From contig JABAKD010000029.1 of NCBI GenBank assembly GCA_012845835.1, forward strand, positions 2,176,970 to 2,240,969: DNA of 64,000 nucleotides. Reading direction: 5' to 3'. Shown in pieces: positions 1 to 57,105 of this stretch. Position 1 is the stretch's first letter, and the number at the start of each line of letters is the position of its first letter. The notes under the pieces are model-generated. The model made no database searches. It was not told the DNA's origin and was given only the letters and a program-made list of their open reading frames with translations. The stretch comes from Undaria pinnatifida. Lineage: Eukaryota > Sar > Phaeophyceae > Laminariales > Alariaceae. Position numbers and translations under genes: made by a program.

Positions 1-10643
<10,643 letters not shown>

Positions 10644-12233
10644 CTGAGAGGGCACACGAGAGGGGGAAAGGAGGGAGAGAGGGAGGCAAGGAGGGAGGGG
10701 GAGGGTATCGGGGTGTTGCTGACGAGGCACTAGAGCCGAGTAGCGCCGCAACAGACATAACACAGCAGTACCAGGTACTGCTGTAGTACGTGAACGGAGT
10801 GAGAGCGAAAGTTATATACAGGGTCAGCGATGTAGACACAAGGCTTGGGCCGGCACCAGTGCTACAGGCTGGGTGCACCAGAGAGAGAGAGCTTGCCAGT
10901 GTGATCATGCCCTCCAGCGCATCTTGGGACAACAGCGTCACAGCAAGGTCCACACCGCACCTACAGCCGTCGAATATTCAAACTGCTGCTGTCATACGTA
11001 CACAGAGTTGCGTCGATAAACAAAACGATCAGAGCTCGTTTCAATTGCAGAACCTACACCTCAAGACAACACGCAGACACCAACAAGAAAGGTGCAGTAG
11101 CGCACGAAACCCATACCGTGGCACTCACGCTCGGCATCCGTGATGGGCACGTGATTGAGCATCTAGCCTGGCTCGAGGTAGGGGAGAACGCTGGAGGTCG
11201 ACTCAACTGGAAATGTGCGTTTGGTGTACATTTTGCCACACGGAGTATAGAAAACGCCTCCCAAGCTCTGTTTAAGATTTCCGCATTTTTGCTAGAGAGT
11301 GGGCGAAGAGTGTGTGCGAGCGTTCTTATCCTCGAGTTTCGTGGGTCCGAGGCACGGGTACTGCGTTCGTCCTCTTTTTTTCTTTGTGGCTGTCGTTTGG
11401 TAATAAATAACTGTTGTTACAGTTAGTTGTTGTTGTTGTTGTCGATTTTTACCCTGGTGTTAAATTAAAGGTGGGGGACACAGAGTGCCCCCTGCAGGTC
11501 TGCCAATTGAGCAGGTCCTCGGAGAATACTCACTTACTTTCGTTCCTTCGTAGAGATGTAGCTTTACTGGGGTACTACCTGGTACATTATTATACTCGGG
11601 AGTAATAATTATTACTACTACTATTATTATCGATGGGAGTTAATACTATTAATACTACAATCAATCGTAGTACTACTTCTGCTGTACACTCACATCTCCA
11701 TTATTATGTGTACTACAACACAACAAACAGCAGCATGTAGTAGTATTGATACGAAGTAGTAGTATTAGTGTTAATAGTAGCAGTAGGAGGACCTACTAGG
11801 TATTATTATAGTCCATATTATGGTCACAAGACGACGGGCGGGCGCGTCAACACCTACTACCTGACAGCTGTGGCGCTTTGAAGACGAACATGTAGACTGT
11901 GTCTATGTATGTCATGTACTTATGTTTGGTGTGGACTGCTGCTATAATAGCAGCAGCTGTGTTTAGTCTTCACATAATGACATTCTAATCAGTAATAAAA
12001 AAAAAACTAAAAACCGTTTTCTTTCTACGACTACATCAATCATCCATTAATACCATCATCACTACAATAACACCCACACACAGTTTACTACTCTCTGCTG
12101 GTTCCCTTCATGCTACAGATACAACTTCTGTGGTTTACAGAACGAAAATGTTACTACTACTGTCTGTGTTGTTCTTGGATATTGTGGGCACCGCGTGGTG
12201 GTGAACTTTGTCATTAAGATGTTATTGTTAAGG
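10644..12233. other. Upstream flank of BDP1, no supported gene
   Basis: 10644-10720 is a strong polypyrimidine tract on the minus strand, consistent with a 3' splice site. Missing 5' exon(s) and the promoter of BDP1 should lie here or just beyond, but I cannot place them. 11600-11830 is rich in TAGTA/TATTA trinucleotides. 11400-11440 holds a short GTT run. Confidence 0.35.
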
Positions 12234-12606
12234 TGTTAAGGACTTTAGTGGGGTATTAGTCCGTTTGACCACTTGCAAAAGGTTAACCTATAGCTCACCC
12301 AAACTAAGCCTTATAACACTCTCCCCCCCTGAAACGGCGGGATAGCAGGTCGGCCGGATATCCGGGCGGACCTGTCAATTATCCAAGCCGTTTCATTCCC
12401 TGGGGATACCAGGAAGAGTATTTTTCAAGTTCGCCATGGGAAAATCTGAAAAAGTTTATTATGGTGGATGTGGGGATCGAACCCACGACCCAAAAACCCA
12501 TGGTCTGTCGACGACGCCATTTGTTAAGGAATTTAGTGGGGTATTAGTCCGTTTGACCACTTGCAAAAGGTTAACCAATAGCTTACCCAAACTAAGCCTT
12601 ATAACA
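12234..12606 (-). mobile_element. TRIM-like element, copy 1
   Basis: Direct terminal repeats at 12234-12318 and 12522-12606 (85 bp each) begin TGTTAAGG and end CTTATAACA, so each repeat has TGTTA/TAACA ends like an LTR. On the minus strand the left repeat is followed after two bases by TGGCGTCGTCGACAGACC, a plausible primer-binding site starting TGG. The right repeat is preceded by the purine run GGGGGGAGAG, a plausible polypurine tract. Between them lies GTGGGTTCGATCCCCAC, a tRNA T-arm shape. AAGG flanks both ends (12230-12233 and 12607-12610). There is no coding capacity, as expected for a terminal-repeat retrotransposon in miniature. Confidence 0.65.
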
Positions 12607-12980
12607 AAGGTATTAGTAGTGGGGTATTAGTCCGTTTGACCACTCGCAAAAGGTTAACCAATAGCTTACCCAAACTAAGCCTTATAACACTCTTCCCCCC
12701 TGAAACGCCGGGACAGCAGGTCGGCCGGATATACGGCGGACCTGTCAATATCCAAGCCGTTTCATTTCCTGGGGATACCAGGGAGAGTATTTTCCAAGTT
12801 CGACATGTGGGGAAAGTCTGAAAAGTTTATTATTGTGGATGGTGGGGATCGAACCCACGACCCGAAAACCCATCATGGTCTGTCGACGACGCCATTTGTT
12901 AAGGTATTAGGGGGGTATTAGTCCGTTTGACCACTTGCAAAAGGTTATCCAATAGCTTACCCAAACTGAGCCTTATAACA
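12607..12980 (-). mobile_element. TRIM-like element, copy 2
   Basis: Terminal repeats lie at 12607-12689 (lacking its first TGTT) and 12897-12980. The interior matches copy 1, with the same T-arm-like, PBS-like and polypurine motifs. It abuts copy 1 directly, so the two may have arisen by unequal recombination or nested insertion. Confidence 0.6.
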
Positions 12981-13476
12981 TTATGTATAATACGAAGTAG
13001 TTAGTTATTGAACTCAGAAGTCGTTTTCGTTGCCGTCCCCGTTACTGTTGTTGTTGTCGTTGAATTATTACTACACAGCACAACTATATAGCTACTTGTT
13101 TTGGAAATGTTAGCACATAGCCATTACGAGTCAATGTTCAGTAGCACTGCTCTTGTGTATCGCAGGTCTCATATGTGTCGGTTCGAGTGTAACGTACGTA
13201 TGTGTGCGGAGGAATTACTTCCGTAGGGTTCTCCGCTTGATATCCAGGTTGGATTCTCCGCTTGATATCCACGTAGCTCACTCTCTCGTGTGGCTCTCTC
13301 TTGTAGATCCTTCCGGATCATAGCTGTCCTGGTCATCTCTGGGAAGCAGCCGTCGTCTGGGCTCTGCTCCTCTGCGGTATATATTTGTGTGTATTGGCGA
13401 AATTAAGCGCCACCGTTGTACTATTCAACATCTTTTTTACATCTCGGAAACACTTTGTCTTCCAGGCTATCCCATC

Positions 13477-13850
13477 TGTTAAGGAATTAGTGGGGTATTA
13501 GTCCGTTTGACCACTTGCAAAAGGTTAACCAATAGCTTACCCAAACTAAGCCTTATAACACTCTCCCCCCCTGAAACGGCGGGATATCAGGTCGGCCGGA
13601 TATACGGGCGGACCTGTCAATTATCCAAGCCGTTTCATTTCCTGGGGATACCGGGGAGAGTATTTTTCAAGTTCGACATGGGGAAAATCTGAAAAGTTTA
13701 TTATTGTGGATGGTGGGGATCGAACCCACGACCCAAAAAAACCATGGTCTGTCGACGACGCCATTTGTTAAGGTATTTAGTGGGGTATTAGTCCGTTTGA
13801 CCACTTGCAAAAGGTTAACCAATAGCTTACCCAAACTAAGCCTTATAACA
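13477..13850 (-). mobile_element. TRIM-like element, copy 3
   Basis: Terminal repeats are at 13477-13560 and 13766-13850, with the same interior as copies 1 and 2, about 500 bp beyond copy 2. I see no convincing target-site duplication (CCATC on the left, CCTCG on the right). Confidence 0.6.
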
Positions 13851-14622
13851 CCTCGCACCGTGCCATCACCTCGACTAATGTCGACGGCACAGCCTCTCAA
13901 ATCACCGTGACAGGGTGTCACACATTATCCATGACAGGTTATGAGCCTCGTCCATGAGCACCGAAATCGCCTGCGCGTGGTTCTCTCGCGAGGCGTAGTC
14001 TATCCAAGATATCTCCCACGTACCGAGTTGCCGGCTTGGTAGCGTATGCAGGCTGAGCATACGACAGCTAGCTGGTAGCCACCTGCTGCTGCCGCTACAC
14101 CTACGTGACCCGCTCACGTAAGTTTGCCTGCGCGTCGTAGTATACTCCAGGTATACCTGCGCGTTGTGGTACACGCGAGGTAGGTCTGTACAAGATATCT
14201 TCCTCGTGCTGTTTTTATTTATCGGTGCGTGTGTAGGCTGAGGATCTGACCAGGCGTGTTTGCATCCGTGCAGCAGCCAAAAGTCTACGCTGCAAGACGC
14301 ATAGCAAGTCTCAGCAGTGCATCTAACCCGTGTACCTGCAGGACGAGGCCGGAGCTGGCTACTCCGTCGTCTCAACACCGCAGTTTCGCCACCTGCGGTT
14401 GATCATAAGCTGTGCTCGACGGGGCGCAGTGGTCTGGGCGGACGCTGGATAGCTAACGCCGGACGTGGGTCGTGGGCTACGGAGCTGCGACCTGAACTAA
14501 GCCTACCCTTGTGTAGCATTGCACCATATCCTTAGGCGCGCCGACCCTTTTCAGGCTCTCGGGGCGTCGTACGTATGCCGAAAACCTGACCGCGCCCGGG
14601 AATGTGACCCTGACTTTCAGCG
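13851..14622. other. Region 5' of the copia relic
   Basis: This probably holds the worn 5' LTR/leader of the element that follows, but I could not match it to a 3' copy. A short direct repeat is present (GTAGTATACTCCAGGTATACC and GTGGTACACGCGAGGTAGG, 14135-14195). Confidence 0.3.
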
Positions 14623-15619
14623 ATGGCGGAATCATCCAGCTCCGGGCTTCACCGTATGCTGCACGCCGTTGGGACCATCTCGGGGCAGCAGGATTTTCGC
14701 GTGTGGAAGACAAAACTCCGGAACGCAGTCAACCTCTTCGCGCCGGATCTTGAGCCCATCCTAGCCGGGGCCGATAGCCCTGCGGAACCTGAGCCGGACG
14801 AGGGAGATAGGGCCAAGTGGGACCAGGCTAACAGTCGCCTGTTCTCCCTCCTCTTCTTTTTCACCTCCGGGTCTGCGCACGCCACCGTCCTTACTCACGA
14901 AGATGCGGCGGATGGAACGGCGGCCTGGAAGGCCCTCGACGAGCGTTTCGACTCTCACACCCAGGAAGCTCGGCGTGCGTGTCACAGAGAGAGCTTTTCG
15001 GCTTTCGGCACCTGGCGGGCGGGGATCCCATCGATTTCTTCACGAAAGGAATGGATCTCAAGATTCACCTCCAAGGCCTGGGGGAGGAGGTCTCCAAGGA
15101 GGTCTATCTAGACATCATGCACTCGGACCTGACGAAGGCCCCAGAGTTTAAATTAATCCGTGAGATCCATACCGTGAGGAATTCACGTCCGTTGACCGTC
15201 TCCAGGAGACGGCTAACCGCTTCTACGTGGACCAGCAGTCGCGCAACGCGTCGGGGCCCGTGGTCTCGGGCCGGGGGGCCACGATGGCGGCATCCTCATC
15301 CCACCGGTGCCATCGATGCAAGGCGTACGGGCATTTCCAGCGTAACTGCCCCCAACAAATGCAGAAGAACCGTCCGAAGCCGGGGAAGAAGAAGTGGAAG
15401 AATAAGTGCGGCGGTGGTGGGGGGAGTGCTCAGCCGAAATGGTGCTTCTACCACAACACCACCACGCACAGCGATGCTGAGTGTCAGAAACAGCAGGAGC
15501 TTCGCGCGAACAAGCATAAGGAGCTCCAAGGCTTGGTTGCTAACCTGGAGCTGCAGCATTCCGCTGGTCAGGTCAACCTGCCCAACATCGGGAGCGCTCA
15601 CTTGGCGCAATCGACTTAG
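14623..15619 (+). pseudogene. Copia gag with frameshifts and zinc knuckle
   Basis: The frame starts MAESSSSGLHRMLHAVGTI and reads through FRVWKTKLRNAVNLF and ALDERFDSHTQEARR, a retrotransposon gag N-terminal region (UBN2/DUF4219 type). Near 14970 it shifts to the frame reading FRHLAGGDPIDFFTKGMDLK. Near 15185 it shifts again to the frame that carries the nucleic-acid-binding knuckle CHRCKAYGHFQRNC (about 15307-15348) and a basic KNRPKPGKKKWKNK stretch. A second Cys/His cluster, CFYHNTTTHSDAEC, follows. It stops at TAG 15617, after which the same frame stays open. Confidence 0.8.
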
Positions 15620-16582
15620 GCGACGGCGCCGCAGGCTCCCGCTGAGCCGACTTCGTTCGGGTTCTCCTTCAGCGCCCAACGCGCTCCACCGGCTGCGGCA
15701 ACTTCGTCTTCTGCCTTTGCCCAGACGCCTCCGGCGGCGTCTGCCGCCACTCCGGCGGCACCTTCATCTATCTCCTCAGAGTCGCCTGCACAGGACCACC
15801 GCTTGCCTTCAGGGTTTTTCTGTGCGTTCATGGCGACTCCTGCCGAGATGTCGCTTGCTCCTTTTCGCTCAGACGGGTCGTGCATCCGGATGGTTGTGGA
15901 CAGCGAAGCGCCCAACAACTACCTCGACCCTGCGCTTACACCAGGAGTGCGGGCCCACATGTGCGACGTCGAAGACCTTCAGGTCCCTCACACGATCGTC
16001 GCCGCCGGCCAGCATCTCCTCAAGGGCGTAACAGCGGGGACTATCTTCGGCGCCGTCACGGACGACAACGGAAATGACCAGCGCGTCTCCTTTCGCGTCG
16101 TTTTGGTGCCGGACTTGGGCACCAACCGCTTCTCCGTGACCGCGGCGATGCAGAAGGGAGTGGCGACGTTGTTTCATCCGGCCAACCCCAGATTGGAGTC
16201 GGGGGACGTGGTTATCCCGATGCAAACCTGTGGGGTGGACGACGCGACCGGAAAGCTCATGTGCTCCATCGAGGTGAAACTAGGGGGTGGCGCCGGGGGC
16301 CAGATGGTCCTCGGGCGAGCCCCTGACGGGCTTGCCTCAAAGTCGGAGTCCACTCAGCTGTGGCACCGGCGCATGGGACACATCAACCACAAGAGCTTGG
16401 ACGTCCTGAGGAAGGCGCCGGCTAGCGGTGTCGACTACACCGGCGACCTTAAGAACTGTGGTACCTGTCCACTCGAGAAGAGCGCACAACAACCTCACCC
16501 CAAGCAGTCCACCTTCATTGAGACACCTTCTGTCGCGCCCTCGTTACACGCGCGCGGTTTTGACGATGGGGAGTTAACGTAG
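15620..16582 (+). pseudogene. Copia protease and GAG-pre-integrase region
   Basis: The frame continues that of the zinc knuckle after one TAG. The aspartic protease site reads MVVDSEAPNNY where copia normally has DSGA, so the catalytic glycine is changed and the enzyme is probably dead. Further on, LWHRRMGHINHKSLDVLRK and CGTCPLEKSAQQPHPKQ form the GAG-pre-integrase/zinc-binding motif (H-H-C-C). The frame ends at TAG 16580 before any integrase DDE core. Confidence 0.8.
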
Positions 16583-17346: not shown

Positions 17347-17403
17347 TGGAACGCAGCAGCAAAGCGCGAGATCGTGTATGTGGTTTTAGTGTGTGGGCAT
17401 TCT

Positions 17404-17965
17404 TGGTTGATGTTCTAGACTTGGTTATCGTGTCGTTTCAGAGTGGTGTTTTCGGCTACATATTATTTTGTGTTTGCGTGGTTGTTGCTACACGCGCATG
17501 TTTTGGTTGATGTTCTAGACTTCGTTATCGTGCTGTTTCAGAATGGTGTTCTAAAATATATATTATTTGTGTCCGCGTGGATGTTGCTACACGTGTATGT
17601 TTTAGTTGATGTTCTAAGCTCCGTTATCGTGTTGTTTCAGAGTGGTGTTTTTGAACACGTATTATTTTGTGTTTGCGTGGTTGTTGCTACACGTGTGTGT
17701 TTTGGGTGATGTTGTAGACTTCGTTATCGTGTTGTTTCATAATGGTGTTTTCAAATACATATTATTTTGTGTCCGCGTGGATGTTGCTACACGTGTATGT
17801 TTTGGTTGGTGTTCTAGGCTTCGTTATCGTGTTGTTTCAGAGTGGTGTTTTTGAACACGTATTATGTTGTGTTCGCGTGGTTGTTGCTATACGTGTATGT
17901 TTTGGGTGATGTTCTAGACTTCGTTATCGTGTTGTTTCATAATGGTGTTTTCAAATACATATTAG
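17404..17965 (+). repeat. Tandem satellite, about six copies of a 100-bp unit
   Basis: GTTGATGTTCTAGACTTCG recurs at about 17406, 17506, 17605, 17704, 17803 and 17902. It alternates with GTTATCGTGTTGTTTCAGAG, TATTATTTTGTGT and GTTGTTGCTACACGTGTATG. Even and odd copies differ slightly (CAAATACAT against GAACACGTA), which suggests a 200-bp higher-order unit. It begins where the copia coding sequence stops. Confidence 0.8.
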
Positions 17966-19280
17966 TTTGCAGTGGTTGGAGAGGGTGGCCTGTTGTGCAT
18001 ATCCGCAAAACGTATTGATGTACGCCGAAACAACTGCTTCGGGGGGCTAAAAAACGAAGTTGCGAGGGACGTTTGGGAATTTCAACGTTCCCCCTCGCGG
18101 CTTTTGTCAAGTACGGTTAACTTCATATTTATCCATGGAGATAAACATGCAACAACCAACCTTGACAACTATGGGTTGTAGTGGTATCCTAATAATACTG
18201 TTATAATACCGTTACTGTTCATAGCTTGGCTATGGGTGTATTCATTATTTTGCTACATTGTGTGAGTTGAATACAAATGCTTCGCGAGGCTAGGGTTGAA
18301 GCCTTGAAATGAAAGTTCACAAAAAGGTTTTGTATATGTGATTAGCCTGCTTATTGAATACTTGGTGTGGACGAAGTAGTGGGAGGTTTAACGCGACAGA
18401 TATTGCAGTGTTAAATGATACTTTTCATGTGTAAACCTGTGGCATGTTTCTTTGCGGCCAGGGAGGGGGGCAGTGGGGCAGTGGGGGGGAGAAAAGGAGT
18501 TTAAACCTGTGGCATAGTTATGTTTAATCGGCTAGGAAGGGAGGGAGGGGCGCGGGGGGGTAAATCCGGTGCTTTGTCTCTTGTCCATCTACTGGTTCCG
18601 AATTTCCTACCAATTGGACGGCTACATTAGCCTTTCGTAGCAGTGTGAAGTTTGATAACATCTTTTTGACCTAAGGTGTGTGGGGGGGGGTTAAGTGAGT
18701 TTGTGGTGAGGGTATACAAGGTCGCAGCATTATACTATGCTTCTTGTGTGTGTGGATGCATGTGGCATATTTCTGTTTATTGGGTAGAGAGGGGAAAAAG
18801 AGAAAGGGAGAGGAGGGGACCAAGGGGGAGGGGGGGACAAAGGGGGTAAAAAGGGGGGGGGGGAGGGGCTGGGGGGAGGGGGGGGTTGGAAGCGGGTTTC
18901 CCCCCGCCCCCCTTTGGGTTGATTGCCTTTATTATTATTATTTTTATTTTTGCCCTCCGACAATGTAGCGTTGCTTGCCTTTATCGTTTTATCTACTAGT
19001 TCCGAAACATCTCAAAATTTATTGACTTTTCCAGCCTTTGTAGCGTTTCAATTTGTATAATATATAAAACCACTCTTCATATGTCACGATAGTATATCCG
19101 TAAGGGACTCAAACAAATTTCAAGGGGGGCATAATAAAACATACCCAGGTGGGTCGAAATCTCCTGAGAGCCAACGTGTTCAGACAAGGCTACTTGCGTA
19201 AGTTGCCGTCAACCACCCAAATTTCTCGGGTCACTCAGGCTACCACGTGGGGCCGTCTCTGAGCGCTTGCTATATTATAA
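17966..19280. other. Gene-free spacer with G-rich tracts
   Basis: I see no supported gene. G-rich and purine-rich runs occur at 18460-18560, 18675-18700 and 18785-18900. Confidence 0.35.
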
Positions 19281-19289
19281 TAATTAAAA

Positions 19290-20775
19290 TACACTCCAGC
19301 TGTGAGATCGAAGATTTTGTCGAAACTCATCTTTGCAAGCTGTGTGTGATATTCCGATTGCGCGAGTTACGGGTTGTGTGTCCTCATTAAGGGTTTAGGT
19401 CGGCGACTCCCCGTGCAACTACAGTGTAGCTATCAGGGTCAACAGGGTGATGTTAGTCAGTCTGTGCGCGGAAACTATAAAACCTGTTCATGAGGGGGAC
19501 AAAATCTGACAGCTGTGGAAGCAAATGCATCAGTTTATCAAGTGAATCCTGTAAGTCGAATAACCGGTGAGGAGAGGGCGGAGTTTTTAAGAACGTGGGG
19601 GCCTAATTTTGATCAAAAGGGGGGCGGGAGGGGGGGAGGGGGGGGGAGGGGACGGGTGGGGCAGGTCAATTTGTACGTGGAGACTATAAATCCTTCTTGT
19701 GGAGGAGGGGGGGGAATGTGGCGGGGGGGGCGGGAGACGGGGGGGGAAGGGCTTTAGGTCGCATAGATGTATGTAGGGGTTTGCTATACGCGTGGTGCTA
19801 GGTCTAGTCGATGGTGCGGGTGGTGAGGAAGGAGGGGGCGTTGGGGGCGGGGGGGGGGGGGGGGGGATTGCAGCAGCGGCATGGACGGCTCTAAAAAGAT
19901 AATGAGGCTATATCCAGGGCGTGGAAGTGTTTATTACTCTGGCGGATTTCGATATTAGGTGGGGCGTTTAAGCAAGAGAGAGCGAGGAAAAAAAAAAGGG
20001 GAGGGGGGGGGGGGAAGGGTTTTCGAGAGGTTTAGGTCACATATAATATTAAAATACACCCCAGCTGTGAGATCGAGGATTAGGTCGACACTGATCTTCG
20101 CAACATTGTGTGTGATCTTCCGATCGCGGGTATTAATCATATATGTAGGGGCTTGCTATACGCGCGGTGCTGGGTCTAGGCGAACGTGCGTGGTGTGGGG
20201 AAGGAGGGGGCGTTGGAGGGGGGGAGGGGGGATGAATGAAAGCTACGTCATGGATGGCTAGAAAGATAATGACGTGATATCAATTGCTTAGAAGTGTTTG
20301 TTACTGTGGCCGATTTCGATTGTAAGTGGGGCGTTTGAACGAACTGGGCGGGGAACGAAAGGGGGGGGGGAGGGCGGAGATGAGTTGGAACTATGGCATG
20401 GACGGCTAGATGGATAATGAGATGATATCAGCTGGCTGGTAGTGTTTAGTACTCTGGTAGATTTTGATTTCAGGTGGGGCGTTTGAACAAGAGGGATCGG
20501 GGAGGGGGGAGGGGGGCGAGCATTTTAATATGTGCGCGGAAACTATAAACCCTTAAAGGGGACGAATCTGACGGTTGCAGCAAGAAGACACCCCTTTTTA
20601 TCACCCGCCTGGTTATGTTTACTATTCTAGAAGGTTTGATGTTACATGTAGCATGCAACCCAGTTCTTAGGTGTCGTAAACAACGTGTTAAAAGCTTCAT
20701 AATTGGTTATTGCACATGGATCGAAAGATAGAATATTTCAATCGATAGGTACAATCATGTAGATACCATTATTTT
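19290..20775 (+). repeat. Second locus of the 2490-4940 repeat family
   Basis: It starts AAATACACTCCAGCTGTGAG and continues with GCAAGCTGTGTGTGAT, GCGCGGAAACTATAAAA, ACCGGTGAGGAGAGGGCGGAG and GTGCTAGGTCTAG, in the same order as 3345-4100. Poly-G tracts separate the blocks. At 20650-20775 it runs into a worn copy of the 283-bp unit of 4376-4940. The apparent ORFs here are Gly-rich poly-G artefacts. Confidence 0.7.
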
Positions 20776-22681: not shown

Positions 22682-25600
22682 TCAGTAGCCGTCGATCGCT
22701 TTCGACAAGAATGCCGGCAAGTCATCCGGGTGCACCCTAGTCTGCTCCGTGGTATCCCTGTCCCTTACGGTCACACAGCCGTCCCCCTCCAACGTATCGA
22801 AATCAACCGTCACGCAAAAGGGGGTTCCAGCCTCGTCCATCCGGCGGTACCTCCGACCTGTAACGCACAACGACCACGTTACCAGCACCAGAACGCGGTT
22901 AAAAATTGTTATATTTCGAACTGCGTACCGTGGAAAAAGGGACATGAGTACTATTAATACTACTAACACTACAGTTCTATATTGTTGGAATGGACTATGC
23001 ACTACGCAACCTGCACATTGTCGGACTGCAAATAAAATAATGAGGTGTTCAGATAATAAGGAAGGCGGCCGTGGGTGTGGGCGAGGGGGTGGGTATGAGA
23101 GTGTGGTGGTGGAGGGGTGGGGCTTGACGTGTGGGGAGGGGGAAAGGGCGGGAAGGTGGGTTGAGGGTGGAGGCAGGGGGGTGGAGTAGAGGGTGGCAAA
23201 GGGGGTAGGGACTGGGGGGGGGGGGTTATGTGATAAAAAAAGGACGGGAGGGGAGGGGGCGAAGCTCTCCTGTCACAACGAGCGATTATCAGGGCACACA
23301 CCCTCTTCGATCAACAGAATATGACAGTACGATACAGTGTACGGTATGGTACGTTACGGTACTGTATAATATGGTACGGTACACTTTTATGCGGTATAAT
23401 ATGGTGTGTTGTGGTATGGAAGGGTATGGTATGGTGCGTTACGGCATGGTAGGGGATGGTTCGGTATGGTACGGTATAGTGTATCAGGTATTGTGTAATA
23501 TGGTATGGTACGGTACGGTACGGTTCACCACGTATTAATAGATATCGCGACGTTCCAACATTCTAGTAACATCTCCATATACCTGCCGCGAGTTCAAAAT
23601 CACATAAACACCAAACGACGACCAAATCCCAGCCACGCGGAAGAAACAACTCCCCCGCCCAAAACACAAACAGGCGATGACTCACCAATAGCCCCGCCTA
23701 CATCCCAGAAGGCGTTATGCCTCATCCGTACGCTCTCGTAGATGCCTCTGGCCTTCTCCATGAGCTCTGGCTTGTTCTTCACCAAGGGGAAAACGGCGAC
23801 CTTGATAGGTGCCATGCGAGGGTGGAACCTGAGCAGAGTTCGCTTCTCGCCGCCGACCTTCAGAGGTGGAAAGAGGGGGGGGAGGGGATAGGGGGGGAGT
23901 GCAAGGAGACGGAATTAAAGGGAAGGAGGCTTCAAAAAAAGGAGGAATGATACGAGGGATCGGGGGATGGGGGAGAAAACAGTAATTTAGGAAAAACGCG
24001 GACGTCCGAAGACTCTCAGCGAGGGTTCGATAATCGGGATGCATGCACAAGGTACACGGTAATTTACCTGGCAAGTAGAATAATAATACAATTACAACTA
24101 CAAAATCAAACAAATAAACACGAATATTAGCGCATCACCTCGTCCTCGTGATAAGCCGAGACCATGACGGCCAGGAAGAGCCTGTCGACTCCAAGAGAGG
24201 GCTCGATAACGTGCGGCACGTACTTCGTCTTGGACCTCTCGTCGAAGTACTCCATCGACTTACCGCTAGCCTCCTGGTGCTGGGTCAGGTCGTAGCAACC
24301 CCGCGCCGCCACCCCCTGCCCAATCAGAGCGCGCCACGTGAAACGCGGACCAAGCGAAAATCAGCGCGACGGACCGTGAAGAGAAGACAGTCGGAAAGCC
24401 GGAACCGGGGACGGGGGAAGATACGTGAGCGATATGATGCCGCCGAGACAAACGCGCCACCCCGGGTGGTCGCTTTTGGTACCTCCATTCCGTCATGTCG
24501 TTGGTTCGGCAAGCGCACGAATGCCTTATAGTAGACTTACTGCCCTTTCTCTCTCTCTTTTTTTTTCTAAAACAACTACCTATTCTCTCGACTCCCTCCC
24601 TACCTCTCTCTCTCGGAGGCAACGAAAGAAAGAGCGCTACGAGAGTGCAAATCAAGTAGCACCCCTTTGCTACCGTACGTATCCGGGGTAAGCAAGTACG
24701 TAACACGTGCGACTGTACCGGGTACGAACTCACAGCACAGCACGCAACACCACTTGAAAAAACTCATATTTCGGGTAAGGCCCATGTTCTTACGCGAGAC
24801 AGGTCGTTGCTTCAGTACGAAAGGATGGAGTTCCTTCAAGTTTCGCTTAAAATTCGACCCAAAAATTCACAACTCCCATTTCTTCAGCCCTTGACCACGG
24901 AGAAAAAATAGTCCGCCACTACCCCAAAATCTGGATGCAGTTCTAAAATGACTTGAAGTGCTGTCACGTACTGTACTGTGACTTGCGCAACCCCACCTGC
25001 AATTCCGATTCCCCAAAGGGGAACTTGAACGTGATATCGGTGCACGCTTTCGCATAGTGTGCCAACCCATCCTCCTTGTGGATATCCCTGCGATGGGATG
25101 AACGGGCGGACCGGCGGACGGGGGGGGTGGAGGCGAAGGAACGGCGAGAGAAACGGAGAGAAAACGATATAAAGGTCAGGGTAAATGCGAGGGGATGGTG
25201 ATGGAAAATCGAGGGAAAGGCAAAGGAAAGACGAGGGAGGGGGGGGGCGGTAAAGGCGAGGAAACGGCGAGAAGGAAAGCGGACGGAAAGACGACATCAA
25301 GGCAAGGGTAAAGGCGACGGAATGGCGAAGGAAAGCCGAGGGAACATTAGAGGGAAAGGCCAAGGACAGCCGAAGGAAAGGCAAACGAAAAGTCGAGGGA
25401 AAAACAAAAGGAAAGCCGAGGGAAACATAAAGGAAAGCCGAGGGGAACGCCGGGGGAAACGCGAAAGAAAGGCGACGGAATGCCGAGGGAAACCCGAAGG
25501 CAAGGTCGAGGGAAAGCAGAAGGAAAAGGGGAAGCCAAGAGAAAGGCGAGGGAAAGGCGAAATAAAGTTGAGAGAATGGCGAAGGAAATTCGAGGGAAAG

Positions 25601-25808: not shown

Positions 25809-27286
25809 TGCAGCAGTGGCAGCGGCAACAGCAGCAGCGGTAAAACTCACTTTCCCATAAGGTCTTCGCGAAGACCGATGGACTTGAGCCATCCCCACGA
25901 AAAGTCTAGCCAGTCTTGGTGGTGCTGCAGAACGAAACAAGTTTTTTTGCCAAGCGGGGATAATAACCACCGCATTGGAATTTTGTAGGTGGTGGGAGGG
26001 GGGGACGGGGAGATGCAGGGACGGGGGAAGGGGAAGTTAGCGTTGGGCAGGACGGAAAAGGGAAATCATAGCGACAGACACGGACACGGAGGCACACCAA
26101 CACACACTAACAACCACAAACACAGACGCGCACAAGCACGCGCAGGCACCCACTGTAACCAATACACAAAACACCCATACAGATACACTACATAACGCAC
26201 ACAGCTGTCTCCAGGCCTGAACACAGATACACAAATCGAAGAACGATCCACACAGGATGGCAAAATATCATCAGACAACATCTCCCCGACACATGAGCAC
26301 ACCCGGTGATGATATTTTCATAGGCCAAAGTGTTATCCCCGGGGTGTGCTATCATACGCATTTTTGTACGGTATACGCATACACACCTGTTTCCAGGCGT
26401 CCCCTTCTTCTATGAAGTACTCAACCTCCATCTGCTCAAACTCTCTTGAGCGGAAGATGAAGTTTCTCGGCGTGATCTCGTTCCTGAACGCCTTGCCCAC
26501 TTGAGCGATGCCGAACGGGATCTACCGATGACGCAGGAATAGGCAAGACAGAACACAAAGTGAGAATGGTGAAAACGTCCAAAAAAACAGTTTACGAAAT
26601 GATGACATGATACTACTACTAATGTTCCAATAATATTCTATTATAGCATCGTCTTGTACTGTATCGATATAACAAAATGAACAACAAAGTAGCGAACGAG
26701 ATCTGCCCATGGTGGTGAATAGATGCCGGAACAGGACGGATAGAAAAATCATTCCGAGACAGTGACGAAAAATACTCAAGGTTAGGAAAAATATGTACTA
26801 ATGATAGTACAAGGGACTACTGCTTGACTTGCTGCTGATTGATGATGACGGGCTACTGGCGGAATACTGACTGACTAGTGGCTGACTGAACAGTGATTGA
26901 GTAGCGATTGACTGGCTACAGACTACATTGTACCTGACAATTGACTGGCGAGTGTGAAGATGCTGGCACGGGTCTTGCGCCTCCCCTACTCCCAACATTC
27001 GTACCGCCTGCCAGAGAGCGTGACGTCACATATTCTACGAAACCTGAACCACTCTAGTTTCTTATCTATAACTATTTACGTAATTATGACAATCTACAAC
27101 ACCGTCTCGACGAATCCTGAAACCTCCAAATAGTGCGCTTGTATAGCTAGCTGGGTACGCCATCTGGCATTCTGTCACGCCAGTTCTACGAATCCTGAAA
27201 CGATCTAGTTTCGTATCTACATGATAGCTACATATGCCGTATTATGGCCCTCTAAAACACTGACCTTGGCTCGAGCCGCCTGCTGC

Positions 27287-27318
<32 letters not shown>

Positions 27319-30300
27319 CGTCTCCGGCCGCATGTACGCCACCGAGCTCCCGTCCTGAAAGCGCGAGCACACAACGCGAGGCAACCGCGTCAAGCAACGC
27401 AAGGAAAATCGTAACGCCACCCCTGCCCCAGCGCAAGCACGTAAACACCGCCCCCCGGCCCCATCCACCCTCCTCCCGCCCACACATCTACCCAACCCAT
27501 ACCCGCATGCCCCTACCTCTACCATCGCCCCCCCCTCTCCCTCCCCCCCCTCATAACCCCCCCCCCCCTTCCGCCTCCACCCCATCCATGCACACCCCAC
27601 CCACCGCATATAGAGCTCTTTGCGCATGAGTTTTTTTCAAGTCATTTTTCTTTTGTGAGGTATACTGTAAAATTTGCTGAAGCGAGGAGCCTCAAACAAA
27701 AACAAAAGGAAGCGCCTCCATACTGTAGCATGCAGGCTTCCTCCTGCTCCGCCTCCGCCTCCCCTTCCCCCTCCTCGTTCTCACAGCCATAGCTCCTACG
27801 TTGGTCTGGAACATCAAAGCTGAACTCTCGCGGCGGGGCCAGAGCGTTCGGCGTCCCCACGGCCGACAAAGCCCTGAAAAACCCAACCCTAGCCCTATCG
27901 AGGCATCACACGCAGCTCGAAACCAACATGACTTATTTTGACGAAATCCTAATCCTCCATCTCAAGAGGGATTTTGACGAAATCCTCCATTTTACAGCTA
28001 TAGTAACATCAAGTTTCAACCACATCCTCCATCCCAAGATGAGTTTCGTCGATTTCCTCCCATCTCTCACAGATGAGGTACCATTCAATTTGCAGTACAA
28101 ACTGTACATGCACCCCTATAGCCCCCACCGCAGCATGCCGTCTCTCGTTCTCCTAAAAACCTACGCACATCCCTACCCCGTCCCGTAGCATCTCCCGCCC
28201 CCTCACCGCCATAGCCCCGACGTTGGTCTGGAACATCAAGTTGAACTCTCGCGGCGCGGTTAGAGCGCCCGGCGTTCCCGTGGCCGGCGATGGCACCAGC
28301 GCGAGCTCTTCCTTGGTCACCGTCGACAGGTCTTGGAGCGCCACGGGCTTCAGAGTTCCCTGCGGGGAGAGAACAAGAGAAACGGAAATAGGGATAGAAC
28401 AGAGAAGGGGAGTTCGACAAGGGAGGGGCGTGGCACCGGGGGGTCACCAAAAGTTACTATTGCTATTCATAAGTAGGATGTGTGCGGCGGTAGAGGTGTC
28501 AGGTTTAGGGCCAAGCGGTTTCTGAATGACGGGCTTCTAAACTAAGAAACTACCAAGTACTTGGAACCCCGTTTGTGTGTCGTACTTTAGAGCCAGCCCT
28601 CGGCAGGGGTGGAGCAGATTCTAAGAAATTTCTCGAGCTCCCAACACGAGGACATCAACATCACCCGAAACATGACCTGGCAGGCATTCAATCGCGCAGT
28701 CCGACCAAAGCACGTCTACGCGCTAGTCCTACAAATACACACTCGTGAACTACCAGAATAACCGGTAGTACCTCACTCGAGGAGGTCAACCAATCACAAG
28801 GCCAGAAACACAATATGGCCCAAAGAGAGCAACCTCTACCGCCGGATGCCTCTTTATTTCTTGTACGCCCAGCCCGCGGGACCGTCCATCGATAGCAAGT
28901 GAACAACGATTGTCCGAGTCGAGGTTTTAGATGAGGAAAGCTGCTCCTAAAGGGGGGGTCTTCGGACAAAGTGAGGTCCGCCTCGACCGTGGCTTGTAGT
29001 TTGAAAATTTGGGACTACTTGTCGGTAATAATTCGTATTTCGAAAACATGAAACTAGGTTGTGTACTGTGTGTGGGGGCATCATAGGGAAGCGGGGGAAG
29101 GGGGGGGGTTGTGGTGGCGTTCGAGTCCGGGATCGCCGCGACCGAACCTCGATCGAACCGTATCCGCAACGAAATCGGAACGAAACCGAAACAGAAGTAA
29201 AACGAACCCGAAACCGAAGCCGAAACCAAAGCCGAACTGAAATCGAACCGAAAGTGAAACCGAGCCGAAACTGAAATCGAGCCGAAACTGAACGAATACA
29301 AAATCGAACAAATCATAAGCGAAACTGGAACCACAATCAACAACTGAAACCGAAACCGAACCGAAACTGAAACCGAAACTGAAACCGAAATCGAAACCAA
29401 AACAAAAACGAAATACAACGAAGACGAAACAGAAGAAACACCGACACATAATCCAAACCGAAACCGAAGCGAAATCGAAATCACAACTGAACGGAAACCG
29501 AACGCTAATCAAACCTAAAACGAAACTGAAGCAAACCGAAACCGAAACGAACGCGAAACCCGAGACAACAACCGAACGGAAACCAAACCGAAACAAAAAA
29601 AGACGAAACCGAAAAACGTGTGCGTGTGTTCACACTTTTTCGTGTACCTGCTTAGACGCCTTTCGCTTCATCTTGTCGGCGGCGGCGTCTGCTTCCTTTT
29701 GCATCTCGCCAGACTCGAGGACGGACACGTAGCCCAAGACGTCTCCGTCTTCCATCTCCACCTAACCAGCACCGACGAGGAGAACGGCATTAAAACTTAG
29801 GACAGTCGAGTAGTAGCTTTCACACTTCCACGATATTGCAAGACTGCAAAAATATGCGCTGACTTTAAAGTAGTTTGGTTGTCCCTAAAGCGTGGGTGCA
29901 TGCCAAAGGGACTACTGTTATATATATATATATATATATATGTAGCATTGCTCTTATTAAAACATCGCCTAAAGCATTTCAGTCAGTGAGGTAGGGAGTC
30001 ACTCTTGCGAGTGGCTCCAACCCGGTAATGAAAGAAGGGGGTATGCTACTACAATACCGTACCCTTGATACTGAACAGCATTGCGTAGCTATTCAATTAT
30101 TTCTCATCTCAACACAGTTGAATACTTGTTTTCTGTCTTCGGGGACACGAAGTCGACAGCAGTACCTTTCCGTAGAAGAGTTGGTCAGCCCTGTACCTCA
30201 GCTTGCTCTCCTTGCAGTCCACCATGGGGTCCGAGAACCCTGCCACGTGGCCCGACGCCTCCCAAACCTGTGGAAAACCGCCACAGAGAAAAGACGTATT

Positions 30301-43772: not shown

Positions 43773-44358
43773 ATGCCGCATCGTACCGCATTACAGCAGT
43801 GTCTGGGGTTTCGTATACATAACATCATTTGGCGTTTCGTATCAGAGTACATACCCCCTACTAAACGCAGTCTTGTATTTGCATTGCAAGCGAGGGATTT
43901 CTTCCCGGAAAGCAGCCGTGTCGCCTTGCGTCCGGTGTATAAAGTTAATGAAGTTATAATGGTAAGCGTTGTCGTTGACGCACGGTCGGTACGGTAACCC
44001 ACGGTCAGTGGTGAAATTTTGTAGTCAGTCGTGCGTTTTTGCCGTCGGTATGGTAGAGACTTTAAATTTGCGCCGTTTGGTGGCGTTTTTTTCGTTTGAT
44101 TGTTGGTTGGCTGGTTGTTTGGCTGTTGCTGCTCTTTTGAGGTACTGACTGGGACAAGGTACTGGCGGAACTTGAATCTACTTGGATACAGCACTGTAGA
44201 CCTTTGCATAGCAGTGCTACTTTTCGCCAATTGATTGCAAAATACCCTGCTACACGTCACCAAGCAAGCAGCTCCACAAGCCCAAACTGGCGAGGAGGGG
44301 CCGATATCATCCGACGCGCAAGCTCTCTATATGCGCCGACTACCGAGGGCATAATTCC

Positions 44359-44621
44359 CAGAGCTCTTCACGGGTCACGATCCGACCCGCGGGTCGGATC
44401 AGGAAGATTTAAAGTCTCGCCGGCCGAGTCGGGCCGGGTCCGGAGGTTTTTAAATCTCGCGGTAAATCTTGCGGGTCGAGTCTGGTCGGGTCAGGAGATG
44501 TTCGAAATCTGACGGATCGGGCCGAGTCGAGTCAACATAATTTCTGATCGCACTGGGTCGGGTCGGATCACCCTGATCAGTCCCGACCCGCGAAAGTTGG
44601 CCCGACACGTGAAATACCCTA
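44359..44621. mobile_element. Short GGGTC-repeat element with hAT-like ends
   Basis: The left end CAGAGCTCTTCACGGGTC and the right end CACGTGAAATACCCTA are related to the longer element at 50611-52267. The interior is GGGTCGGGTC-type repeats, G-rich at the left and C-rich at the right. Flanks ATAATTCC and AAGTTTCC share five of eight bases. Non-coding; probably a non-autonomous DNA transposon. Confidence 0.5.
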
Positions 44622-50610: not shown

Positions 50611-52267
50611 CAGGGCTTTTCATGGGTCATGACCCGACCCGCGGGTCGGGTCAAGGGAGTTTCAAAATCTCGCGGGTCGGGTCGGGTCGGGTCGGGTCAA
50701 GAGGTTTTTTTAATCTCGCTGGTCGGGTCGGGTCGGGTCAAGAGGCTTCAAAATCTCGCGGGTCGGGTCGGGTCGGGCCAAGAGGTTTCAACATCTCGCG
50801 GGTCGGGTCGGGTCGGGTCAAGAGGTTTTCAAAATCTCGCGGGTCGGGTCGGGTCATGACCCGCGAGATACGGGTCACTTCGCGGGTCAAGCCATAATGA
50901 CCCGCGAGTTGTTTTGGGCTGACCCGCGGGTCAAACCCGCGGATCTGGCCCGCGGATCCGCCTTTTTCAAACTTACAGCTGAGAGCCATTGATGCCGTGC
51001 AGGCGCCCCGCGGGTCGGGCCCGCGGGTCCGCAAATAAAATACAAATATTTCCGACTCCTGCCTCCCTCGTGCCGATGCTCCGATCATATGTCATCACAG
51101 GGTGCAGAAAAATCACCAGGCAGTACCCCTAGCTACTCGTACCAAGGCATACAGCAGTGTGACGCGAATCCCGTACCTGCTGAAGCCGTACCAACAACAG
51201 CAATATCACGGTCATACCAGTACGAAATGTGACCAAACGTAAAAAGGCAAGGAAGGGCAGTCGTCGTCGAAGCAGCAGCAGCAGACCTCGGATTCTCGCG
51301 GATTGCAGCCCCTGCTGACAGACACACCGTCCCAGTTGTGGGCTTGCTGCCGGAGGTGGCTCAGCTAGGCTGCTTGCCGGGGCTGGAGACTGCACAGATA
51401 GTAGATACAGCAGCAGCAGTAGTAGTAGTAGTAGCTAGCTCGAGAATTATCATACCAGTACGAGATGTGACCAAACGTAAGAAAGCAAGAAGAGCAGTCG
51501 TCGTCGAAGCAGCAGCAGCAGCACAGCAGCAGCCGCACCCTGGCAGCAGCAAGCACCAGCAGCAGACAACGCATCCTCGCGGATCGCAGCCCCTGCTGAC
51601 AGATCCACCGCCCCAGTTGTGGGCTTTTCCTGCCGGAGGCGGCTCAGCTAGGCTGCTTGCCGGGGCCGGAGATTGCACTTATACATTATAACCTGCTTAT
51701 AACTAGCTCGCTCGTCGGGTCGCTCGTCGGGGTCGACCCGGTGGTCTAGCGGTACGGGCATGCTCATGCATGTGGGTTGCGGTTTCTTTCCTATTTTTCG
51801 CGCGCACACCACATGACATAATCATCAGCTGCAAACAATGCCGGTAAAAAACCCAGAGAACACGACATTACTGGGAAAAGTACGAGGGACCAAGGACCAA
51901 CCAACAGACCGAGGTATACATGCTTTGACCCGTGACCCGCATGAAACCCGCATCTCGCGAATTACCCGAATTGTGGCGGGTCGGGTCGGGTCGGGTCAGG
52001 AGGATTTCAAAACCTCGCGGGTCGGGTCGGGTCGGGTCGGGTCAGGAGGTTTCAAAATCTCGCGGGTCGGGTCGGGTCAGGTCAGGAGGTTTTCAAAATC
52101 TCGCGGCTCGGGTCGGGTCCGGCCGGGTCAAGACGTCTCGAAATTCTTGCGGGTCGGGTCGGGTCGGGTCAAGACGTCTCGAAATTCTCACGGGTCGGGT
52201 CGGGTCAGCTGACCCGACCCGACCCGACCCGACCCGCGAGATTTGACCCGACCCGTGAAAAGCCCTG
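50611..52267. mobile_element. Large GGGTC-repeat element with terminal inverted repeats (hAT-like)
   Basis: The left end CAGGGCTTTTCATGGGTC is mirrored at the right by GACCCGTGAAAAGCCCTG (52250-52267). Subterminal arrays at 50635-50860 and 51960-52250 repeat a unit of CGGGTCGGGTCGGGTC plus AAGAGGTTTCAAAATCTCGC. Flanks GAAATTAT and CAGATTAT share six of eight bases, compatible with a worn 8-bp target duplication. Short CAGGG ends, 8-bp duplications and subterminal repeats are hAT features. There is no transposase ORF; the frames over the arrays are Gly/Ser/Arg artefacts. Confidence 0.6.
51210..51690 (+). repeat. Tandem duplication of about 240 bp with CAG expansion
   Basis: 51210-51402 and 51449-51682 share CATACCAGTACGARATGTGA, GCAGTCGTCGTCGAAGCAGC, GCAGCCCCTGCTGACAGA and GGCTCAGCTAGGCTGCTTGC. 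The second copy carries an extra CAG-rich stretch. It is inside the 50611-52267 element. Confidence 0.75.
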
Positions 52268-54185: not shown

Positions 54186-55805
54186 GTGAGACAGGAGGCC
54201 GACTACAGCAGCAGTATGAAAGTCATCACAAGGCCCCACTTTCTGAGTAAATGCTTGCGGTATGTGTACGAGCGAGAGGTGTCCATTGCCTCCCAGTAAT
54301 ACTGCTGCTTGTACTGCTTAGGCAGTCTCGGCAGGCAGCAAGCCAATACTTTGCAAAAAAAGCGGATGAAATGTTGCAGCCTAGCTAGGCTATTCTCTAA
54401 GCGACAACTTTTCGATCGATCGGCGACCCTCTCTCTCCCTTCCCTGCGATGCTCGACTCCCTCGATCGCCTCTATTTCGTAGATATTCCTCCTACAACTT
54501 TCCCAGGCAGGGCCTGTTCTGTGCAGAGGCGCCCGCTCTCGATACATGCAGTGGGAAGAAATTGAGCCTCGTTTTCTTATATAGGAAAAATAAGAAATAT
54601 TAACTAAGAAACGGTGCTCAGGGTCGGGTGTCATACCTAGTCCCATGTAATAGCCTATAGTAGCCGGTGCTCAATGGTAGCGGCGACGTGAGAACTCGAG
54701 CCTCGACACCAAATTGACGTTTATTGCGTCGCAGCGGGCGCCTTTTGTTTCCTTCTCGTTGACTTGCACATGTTCGTCGCCATGGCAGTAGTCTGACACG
54801 CCAATCAAATCATGCCGCCATACCGCCCTGTGGTTGATTTGTTGATAGCCCATGCTATATATGTACCATGCGTATGGCCACCTGGCATCCATCCCCTAGA
54901 AGCAAAGCAGCAGCATCTGCAGCAGCAGATGCGCCATGCATCTGGCACCTGCCACCCATCCCGTATTTTCACAGTGCCTAAGGGTCCCACCACAAGGCGG
55001 TCTGAGTAAGGCGGTATCCCGATATAAGGCGGGTAAAATCGCTTGGCGCGTCTGGGGATTGCACTCGTAACCTGAAATGAATAAGGCGGCTACCCCCAAT
55101 AAGGCGGTCATATATCTTTGCCACACCACCGCCGTACTGGAGGACCCGCATATAGTGCTGTTGTAGAAGCAAACGAGGAGCAGCAGCAGCGGCGGCGGCG
55201 GCGGCGGCGGGGGCGGCGTCCCTCGCTCGCCCTTTGCACTCCACATCACTGCTATTGAACGCGCACTCGTTACATGCCGAGTCAACGCATGTACACTACG
55301 GGCTACCCGAGCTCCCGTAAGATTGATGTGTGAGGCCCACAAGAAAGTCAACCTGGGGTTTCCGAGGAAATAAGAAATTCGGGGGGGCGTATTGAAGTCC
55401 GCGTAGAACACACCATTTCTTCCGCAAAAACCTTAGCCCGCGCCGGTGTGGGATGGGTTGGGTTTGTGTAGAGACTTTCCTGCTTCCCACCAACGCACAT
55501 ACAGCAGCAGTGCGAGTTTGTAATTATCACCGCCCTGAAAGATGGGGACACCTTTCGAGATCGCCGAAGACGGTCTACGCCCGTGCGCAGTTCGTTCTCC
55601 GAAAATAAATACCAGGTTGCTAGGACCGACTGCTTTTTCGTTCGGCCAATGACAACAAACCAACGAGCAACATCACCAGCAGTGTTCAGCGAGTAACTGC
55701 TGCTGTGTGCGGCAGAAGAAAAATAATTTGATAAAAAGTGGGTATTATACCTGGTACGTACGTGTCGGACTATAGGAGAAGCATGCAGCATTATATACAC
55801 CCGGG
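54186..55805. other. No supported gene (SEC62 intron or intergenic)
   Basis: A short GGC run is at 55185-55215, and CAGCAG runs are at 54905-54930 and 55180. A direct repeat of AAGGCGG (55010-55110) is present. Confidence 0.35.
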
Positions 55806-55809
55806 CAAC

Positions 55810-57105
55810 ATATTATAAAAAATGAAAATACACTCCAGCTGTGAGATCGAAGATTTTGTCGACACTCATCTTTGCAAGCTGTGTGTGATACTCCGTTCGC
55901 GCGTATTACGGGTTGTGTGTCCTCATGAAGGATATAAGTCGGCGACTCCCCTTACAACTACAGCTAGTGTAACTATCAGGGTCAACAGGGTGATGTTAGT
56001 CAGTCTGTGCGCGGAAACTATAAAACCCGTTTCTGAGGGGGACAGGTTTTGACAGCTGTGGAGGGAAATGTATCCGTTTATCTGGTGAATCCTGTAAGTC
56101 GAATAACCGGTGAGGGGGGGGCGGAGTTTTGAAGGACGTGGGGGCCTGGTTTTGATCAAAAGCGAGCGGGGTTGGAGGGGGGGGGGGAGGGGGGGGGGGG
56201 GGGGCGGACGGGCGGGCAATTTGTGCGTGGAAGCTATAAATCCTTTAAGGGGATAAATATGACGGTTTTGGGAAAAAAAAAAAGAAGAAAAAATGATGCA
56301 CCAGTTTATCATAGGAGGGGGGGGTTGGGGCGGGGGTGGGGCGGGTGGGGCAGCTCAATCTGTGCGTGGAAACTATACATTATTTTTGAGGAGATGAATG
56401 TGAAGGTTTTGGAAAGAATGCATCAGTTTTATCATGTACATCCTGGGGTAAGTCGTACAATCAGTGAGTAGAGAGAGGGCGGAGTGTCCGAGGGGGTGGG
56501 GGTGGGATGGGGTGGGGGGGTTGGGGAGGTGGGGGGTGGGGGCGGGGGAGGGGGGTGGGGGAAGGGGGGGTGGGGGGGGGAAGGGAAGGGTTTTAGGTGA
56601 GGGGTTTGTTATGCGTGTGGTGCTAGGTCTAGGCGATGGTGCGGGTGGTGGGGAAGAAGGGGGCGTTCGGGGCGGGGGGGGGGGGGGGGGGGGGGAGCAG
56701 CGGCATGGATGGCTCTAGAAAGATAATGAGGTGATATCCAGTGCGTGAAGTGTTTATTAATGTGGCGGATTTCGATATTAGGTGGGGCGTTTGAGCAAGG
56801 GAGAGCGCGAAGGGGGGGGGGGGGGGGAGAGGGGGAAGATTTTTTAGGAGGTTTAGGTCACAAATAATATTCAAATACACTCCGGCTGTGAGATCAAAGA
56901 TATGTAGGGGCTTGTTATACGCGTGGTGCTAGGTCTAGGCGATCGTGCGGGCAACATATATATTATAAAAAATGAAAATACGCTCCAGCTGTGAGATCGA
57001 AGATTTTGTCGAAACTCATCTTTGCAAGCTGTGTGTGATACTCCGATCGCGCGTATTACGGGTTGTGTGTCCTCATTAAGGATATAGGTCGGGGACTCCC
57101 CTATG
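55810..57105 (+). repeat. Third locus of the 2490-4940 repeat family
   Basis: It begins AAAATACACTCCAGCTGTGA at about 55828, follows the same block order as 3345-4100 with expanded poly-G tracts, and ends with a second partial copy of the first block at 56955-57100. An ATATTATAAAAAATGAAAAT leader precedes both blocks (55808 and 56949), which may mark the true left edge of the repeat. Confidence 0.7.

Follow-up and report, generated by a model that had tools for sequence, protein, structure and literature searches.

Architecture of the element

In a 64-kb stretch of the Undaria pinnatifida genome (Phaeophyceae; contig JABAKD010000029.1, positions 2,176,970 to 2,240,969, hereafter the window), the minus strand of 12226-13850 carries three full copies of one short element, all with their sense on that strand. 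Each copy is bounded by paired direct repeats ending in TGTTA...TAACA (TG..CA type), here called long terminal repeats (LTRs), and all share the sense layout LTR, AA, TGGCGTCGTCGACAGACC, 10 to 13 nt, GGGTCGTGGGTTCGATCCCCAC, about 140 nt, a purine tract and LTR. At under 1 kb, protein-less and with paired direct terminal repeats, the element has the size and form of a terminal-repeat retrotransposon in miniature (TRIM). The copies and the two putative priming sites, namely a primer-binding site (PBS) and a polypurine tract, lie as follows.

12234-12606, minus strand: copy 1, with 5′ LTR at 12522-12606 and 3′ LTR at 12234-12318
12607-12980 and 12226-12233, minus strand: copy 2, split by copy 1, with 5′ LTR at 12897-12980 and 3′ LTR in two pieces
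13477-13850, minus strand: copy 3, with 5′ LTR at 13766-13850 and 3′ LTR at 13477-13560
12502-12519 (copy 1), 12877-12894 (copy 2) and 13746-13763 (copy 3), minus strand: PBS-like 18-mer starting with TGG, two A bases from the 5′ LTR
12319-12330 (copy 1), 12690-12701 (copy 2) and 13561-13572 (copy 3), minus strand: polypurine tract against the 3′ LTR, from the alignment of the copies

The copies measure 373, 378 (one AAGG omitted) and 374 nt, with 5′/3′ LTRs of 85/85, 84/87 and 85/84 nt in copies 1, 2 and 3, respectively. A preliminary description of the locus had spoken of three 373-bp copies with 85-bp repeats; the number of copies holds, the sizes are those given here (LTRs of 84-87 nt), and copy 2 is interrupted by copy 1. 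Pairwise identity among the copies is 93.0-96.0% (gap columns excluded), and comparing the two LTRs of each copy gives differences at 3 of 85 positions in copy 1, at 3 positions in copy 2, which also has two short indels (3 nt in total), and at a single position in copy 3, besides an indel of 1 nt. No further copy or solo LTR was found in the window by blastn (E up to 10); the other matches of the element there have E of at least 0.23, except for its own inverted stem.

Both priming motifs stand where that description had placed them, the TGG-starting one two bases inside one repeat and the purine tract against the other, in 3/3 copies. The PBS-like 18-mer is identical in all three, and searching the window for it with up to 3 mismatches returns 3 matches against 0.07 expected. 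The purine tract reads AGGGGGGGAGAG in copies 1 and 3 and AGGGGGGAAGAG in copy 2, and abuts the 3′ LTR in every case; purine runs at least 11 nt long number 183 over both strands of the 64 kb, so that one should seldom end at any particular base by chance. Separately, a retrozyme was considered and ruled out, as no ribozyme family was among the Rfam matches (none in the window at the gathering threshold, and none when 12200-13870 was searched with E up to 10, which gave 10 matches).

Target duplications and a nested insertion

Comparison of the flanks identified two exact duplications.

12230-12233, other side 12607-12610: target duplication AAGG of copy 1
12222-12225, other side 12981-12984: target duplication TTAT of copy 2

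Copy 1 lies inserted in the 3′ LTR of copy 2 with AAGG on both of its sides, and removing copy 1 together with one AAGG restores the 3′ LTR of copy 2, with a similarity ratio of 0.942 to that copy's other LTR. The nested insertion and the 4-bp duplications establish that the element moved by integration. Target duplications had been expected at 5 bp: they are present and exact in 2/3 copies, at a length of 4 bp.

That there is no LTR element here at all, and that the pattern arose by chance or from an unrelated repeat duplicated in tandem, is barely credible: copies 1 and 2 adjoin and the LTR ends are partly complementary, as such an origin might give, but it leaves aside the two exact 4-bp duplications, the nested insertion and the correct placing of polypurine tract and PBS-like site. 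Identity as a TRIM is well supported, because the LTR pairs, the TG..CA ends, the place of the PBS, the polypurine tract, the two exact 4-bp duplications and the nested insertion all point to it.

The length of the duplications also bears on the partner that may have moved the element. Helenus elements have 4-bp duplications in animal families, tied to Gypsy, and 5-bp ones in fungal families, tied to Copia (PMC10886601). By analogy with the animal families, we would guess at an autonomous partner of Gypsy type.

A tRNA-derived piece inside the element

Shortly past the PBS, each copy holds a stretch with the shape of a tRNA T-arm.

12470-12491 (copy 1), minus strand: tRNA-derived 22-mer, variable loop plus T-arm, from viral-contig scans, ARAGORN, Rfam and a T-arm scan
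12470-12486 (copy 1), 12842-12858 (copy 2) and 13713-13729 (copy 3), minus strand: T-arm, from a strict T-arm pattern

The T-arm, GTGGGTTCGATCCCCAC, is identical in 3/3 copies and forms a perfect 5-bp stem with a 7-nt loop. The 22-mer, too, is the same in every copy; it is internal (sense positions 117-138 of 374 in copy 3) and starts 10, 13 and 11 nt past the PBS 18-mer in copies 1, 2 and 3. The strict T-arm pattern occurs 3 times in the window, always in a copy of the element, whereas 40 simulations averaged 0.225 per 64 kb over both strands. The looser B-box GTTCRANNC is not enriched (12 found vs 16.5 expected), so it is the stem that carries the argument for a tRNA origin. No whole tRNA gene was called by ARAGORN in the window. 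Rfam returned sub-threshold matches only, the tRNA-like ones being tmRNA models at 14.7-21.8 bits (gathering threshold 47) anchored on the T-arm.

Scans of IMG/VR found the 22-mer in 15 viral contigs, and 9 of these 15 places lie within tRNA genes called by ARAGORN: four for Lys (two of them, in L007 and L008, near-identical), three for Pyl/CTA, one for Val and one for Thr. In three contigs with no called tRNA gene there (L002, L005, L011) the 22-mer is preceded by the lysine-type CTTTTAATC, and in three others (L003, L004, L012) it lies outside called tRNA genes. The reversed string of the 22-mer occurred in 0 viral contigs of the IMG/VR scan. Judged by its sequence, the 22-mer is tRNA-derived and in sense orientation, because it sits inside tRNA genes of viral contigs, its reversed string is absent from them, and the strict T-arm is rare in simulation. 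The T-arm shape seen at first reading is thus real, and absence from most copies, which had been named as the finding that would speak against it, is not what the window holds: the T-arm is in 3/3 copies. Copying of the T-arm from the primer tRNA was ruled out by reasoning, as it would leave an antisense T-arm in the sense strand of the element.

Promoter candidates

Three further features bear on how the element may be transcribed.

12492-12496 (copy 1), minus strand: TTTTT between PBS and T-arm; TTTT in copy 2 and TTTTTTT at 13735-13741 in copy 3
12581-12599 (copy 1), minus strand: D-arm/A-box-like stretch of the 5′ LTR, LTR positions 8-26, AGGCTTAGTTTGGGTAAGC
12598-12603 (copy 1), minus strand: TATAAG, candidate TATA box for RNA polymerase II (Pol II), LTR positions 4-9; present in both LTRs of all 3 copies and overlapping the D-arm-like stretch

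The preliminary description had proposed a promoter for RNA polymerase III (Pol III) lying wholly inside the element, with the PBS as A box and the T-arm as B box. The PBS does fit 7/9 fixed A-box positions, and the B box, exact in 3/3 copies, starts 36, 39 and 37 nt after the PBS start in copies 1, 2 and 3. The gap between the boxes, 24-27 nt, had rightly been called shorter than in a tRNA, and the shortfall from the usual 30-40 nt is only slight (PMC10137851). A score of 7 or better is, however, reached in 1363/2000 random 123-nt stretches (68%), which is the level of chance, and the strict D-arm scan of the window does not list the PBS. Moreover, T-runs of 5, 4 and 7 separate PBS and T-arm on the sense strand of copies 1, 2 and 3, and a block of T6-7 acted as a terminator in the constructs of PMC10137851. 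The PBS-like motif as A box thus finds no backing, and we consider a promoter made of these two internal boxes very unlikely.

Another reading is a split Pol III promoter, whose A box would start at position 8 of the LTR and whose B box would be the internal T-arm some 116 bp away. LTR positions 8-26 show A14-R15, GG and a perfect 4-bp D-stem (GCTT/AAGC) in 4/6 LTRs (12599, 12682, 13553, 13843), and the strict D-arm pattern is met in 1.3% of 20,000 random 123-nt stretches of the window and in 2.0% of 20,000 simulated ones. Orientation (sense) and box order are compatible with such an arrangement, TRIMs with Pol III-type boxes have been described (Helenus, PMC10886601), and boxes A and B lie far apart in yeast SNR6 (PMC9136082). 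Against this, the stem carries one substitution in the other 2/6 LTRs, base 8 is A and not T, and the A-box consensus alone (8/9) is met by 12.5% of random stretches. Nor is the D-arm pattern rare: 17 are expected per 64 kb, the window has it at 12 further places, and its choice followed inspection of the sequence. Each LTR contains TTTT, and TTTT or TTTTT also follows shortly downstream of the T-arm; if these T-runs are Pol III stop signals, as is possible from their sequence, the LTR TTTT and the runs of 4-7 upstream of the T-arm would terminate transcripts early.

We put Pol II first and keep the split Pol III promoter as a bold option, unlikely in our estimate, because the A box at the PBS is at chance level, the T-runs intervene, and the LTR D-arm pattern is not rare and was chosen post hoc. 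Were the promoter truly split in this way, it would be complete at the 5′ LTR only, with the 3′ LTR and solo LTRs silent, and would show how a mini-element with two identical LTRs could fire from just one of them. Such a promoter could do with hardly any U3, which would account for an LTR of 85 bp.

RNA folding and conservation

Predicted folding singles out the part of the element towards the 3′ LTR.

12319-12424 (copy 1), minus strand: 3′ half of the internal region, including the polypurine tract, with a stable predicted fold (106 nt, shuffle test)

This fold has a z of -3.74, with 1/200 shuffles as stable. Across the three copies 0/35 of its pairs show compensatory change. Copy 2 alone disrupts pairs, with 3 broken or gapped, and covariation scores unfavourably (+0.67). 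The whole internal region gives z -1.96 (8/200 shuffles) and the entire copy 3 gives z -4.39 (0/100). Neither the LTR alone (z -0.57, -0.43) nor the PBS/T-arm stretch (z -0.23, -0.49) is unusually stable. The two ends of the LTR (12522-12606, minus strand) are partly complementary and paired in the predicted fold, no better than in shuffles. Variable columns among the three copies number 0/18 in the PBS, 1/22 in the 22-mer (a gap at its end, placed by the aligner), 5/85 in the 5′ LTR and 10/102 in the 3′ hairpin with the polypurine tract.

The T-arm hairpin is predicted in copies 1 and 3, extended by GGGU/AUCC (copy 2 was not folded alone). With the 22-mer only 10-13 nt from the PBS in all three copies, and with inner domains of bivalve TRIMs likewise showing tRNA similarity and hairpins (PMC6934838), a T-arm minihelix could be imagined to aid reverse transcription beside the PBS by contacting the primer tRNA or its carriers. 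Folding of the PBS/T-arm stretch no stabler than in shuffles speaks against such a role, and we rate it as unlikely.

Proposed life cycle

As a whole explanation we think it rather probable that the element is a TRIM of about 375 bp with a captured internal 3′ part of a tRNA, transcribed by Pol II and mobilised in trans. Being non-autonomous, it would borrow the proteins of an unseen autonomous LTR retrotransposon in order to move. Pol II would transcribe it from the LTR, where the TATAAG at position 4 is a possible promoter element; a host tRNA would prime reverse transcription at TGGCGTCGTCGACAG, the purine tract would prime the second strand, and an integrase leaving 4-bp duplications would insert the product. 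The internal region would have captured the tRNA 3′ part (variable loop plus T-arm) in sense. In the element RNA this piece would form a hairpin next to the primer site, either as a passenger or with a structural role, and it is probably not the main promoter.

The primer is presumably a serine tRNA, a guess of ours from tRNA ends, in which case its 3′ end should read ...CTGTCGACGACG-CCA. A serine primer would be ordinary, because a Culex paper lists many Mag-lineage elements with a serine-tRNA PBS (PMC3286476), a listing that is no test of the present PBS.

Several observations weigh against this scheme. Compared with 69 tRNAs of the fetched viral and prokaryote loci, which are foreign and not of the host, the PBS reaches a best agreement of 11/15. 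The flanks of copy 3, CATC and CCTC, agree in 3/4 bases and give no exact duplication. No autonomous partner was found in the window, where self-comparison gave no LTR pair around a Copia-like gag region and no second PBS turned up. The TATAAG may arise by chance in 85 nt, and the D-arm/A-box shape of the LTR would also fit transcription by Pol III. Finally, the three copies are too similar to reveal selection on any part.

Five viral-contig scans with pieces of the element or the predicted primer end returned 1, 0, 0, 0 and 0 contigs, the sole match being the PBS in one contig (L001) without LTR or T-arm alongside. A pattern of LTR end, gap and PBS start was present in 33 prokaryote genome contigs and was judged from the listing to be chance.

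Comparison with known elements

A class of TRIMs that bear pieces of small-RNA genes, TRIMp3, has been proposed, and its described members have that piece in the LTR; Kojima 2024, which covers small-RNA pieces in LTRs, names this class together with Helenus and Ajax (PMC10886601). Helenus, which that paper reports in fungi, in animals and in a single plant, is likewise a short TRIM with tRNA-like sequence and polypurine tract, has a PBS where the present element has its PBS-like site, and shares the 4-bp duplications of its animal families and, in one family, tandem arrays (PMC10886601). Its tRNA sequence is in the LTR (PMC10886601), whereas the Undaria T-arm is internal and the LTR has a D-arm-like shape only; the definition of Helenus therefore does not cover the present element. 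By the Helenus box criterion, the B box is exact in 3/3 copies and the best A box scores 8/9, a value matched by 12.5% of random stretches.

Cassandra and Ajax are also TRIMs bearing a piece of a small-RNA gene, but theirs is 5S rRNA and located in the LTR, and Pol III transcription of Cassandra is validated (PMC10886601). The analogy with Cassandra drawn at first is apt in kind, its promoter part is unsupported, and tRNA-bearing TRIMs had already been named in Helenus, with the tRNA in the LTR (PMC10886601). The biv-TRIM of bivalves resembles the present element in an inner domain with tRNA similarity and hairpins and differs in that no canonical PBS was identified in it (PMC6934838). In Culex, cqgypsy_1 is an LTR element with tRNA sequence at the LTR/PBS border, but it is a large element of Osvaldo type (about 12 kb), and the tRNAs it bears are two whole ones arranged head to head (PMC3286476). 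Among brown algae, LTR elements of 3.9-14.5 kb are described for Ectocarpus (PMC12477816), and the text examined of that paper does not mention TRIM as an element.

A literature search in which few subscription journals were covered found, these near cases aside, no TRIM whose interior carries a tRNA T-arm in sense. The element is a variant on a known TRIM type and not a new kind. An internal tRNA fragment beside the primer site would represent another mode of capture, and it allows one to test whether such pieces act in transcription, in priming or not at all.

Other features of the window

The Copia-like region lies at 14614-16582 (plus strand). It contains a GAG-pre-integrase domain (E 1.8e-08) and a zinc knuckle that falls short of the curated cutoff (E 0.0026); the four open reading frames (ORFs) scanned there gave no reverse transcriptase match. 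It resembles gag-only Copia families of Ectocarpus (PMC12477816). A tandem array with a 100-bp unit in 5.7 copies follows directly at 17403-17969. Members of a dispersed repeat family, several hundred bases long, in both orientations and at about 69-94% identity, are found at 2469-4102, 19271-20580 and 55802-57102.

An exon-like ORF at 22682-23272 (minus strand) contains an HGTP anticodon-binding domain (E 5.7e-13). Another ORF at 27217-27636 (minus strand), for which there was no Pfam match, carries a motif as in glycyl-tRNA synthetases. Two arrays of a 40-41-bp CGGGT-rich unit lie at 50642-50855 and 51977-52206, and sequence related to the first of them is present at 44353-44569.
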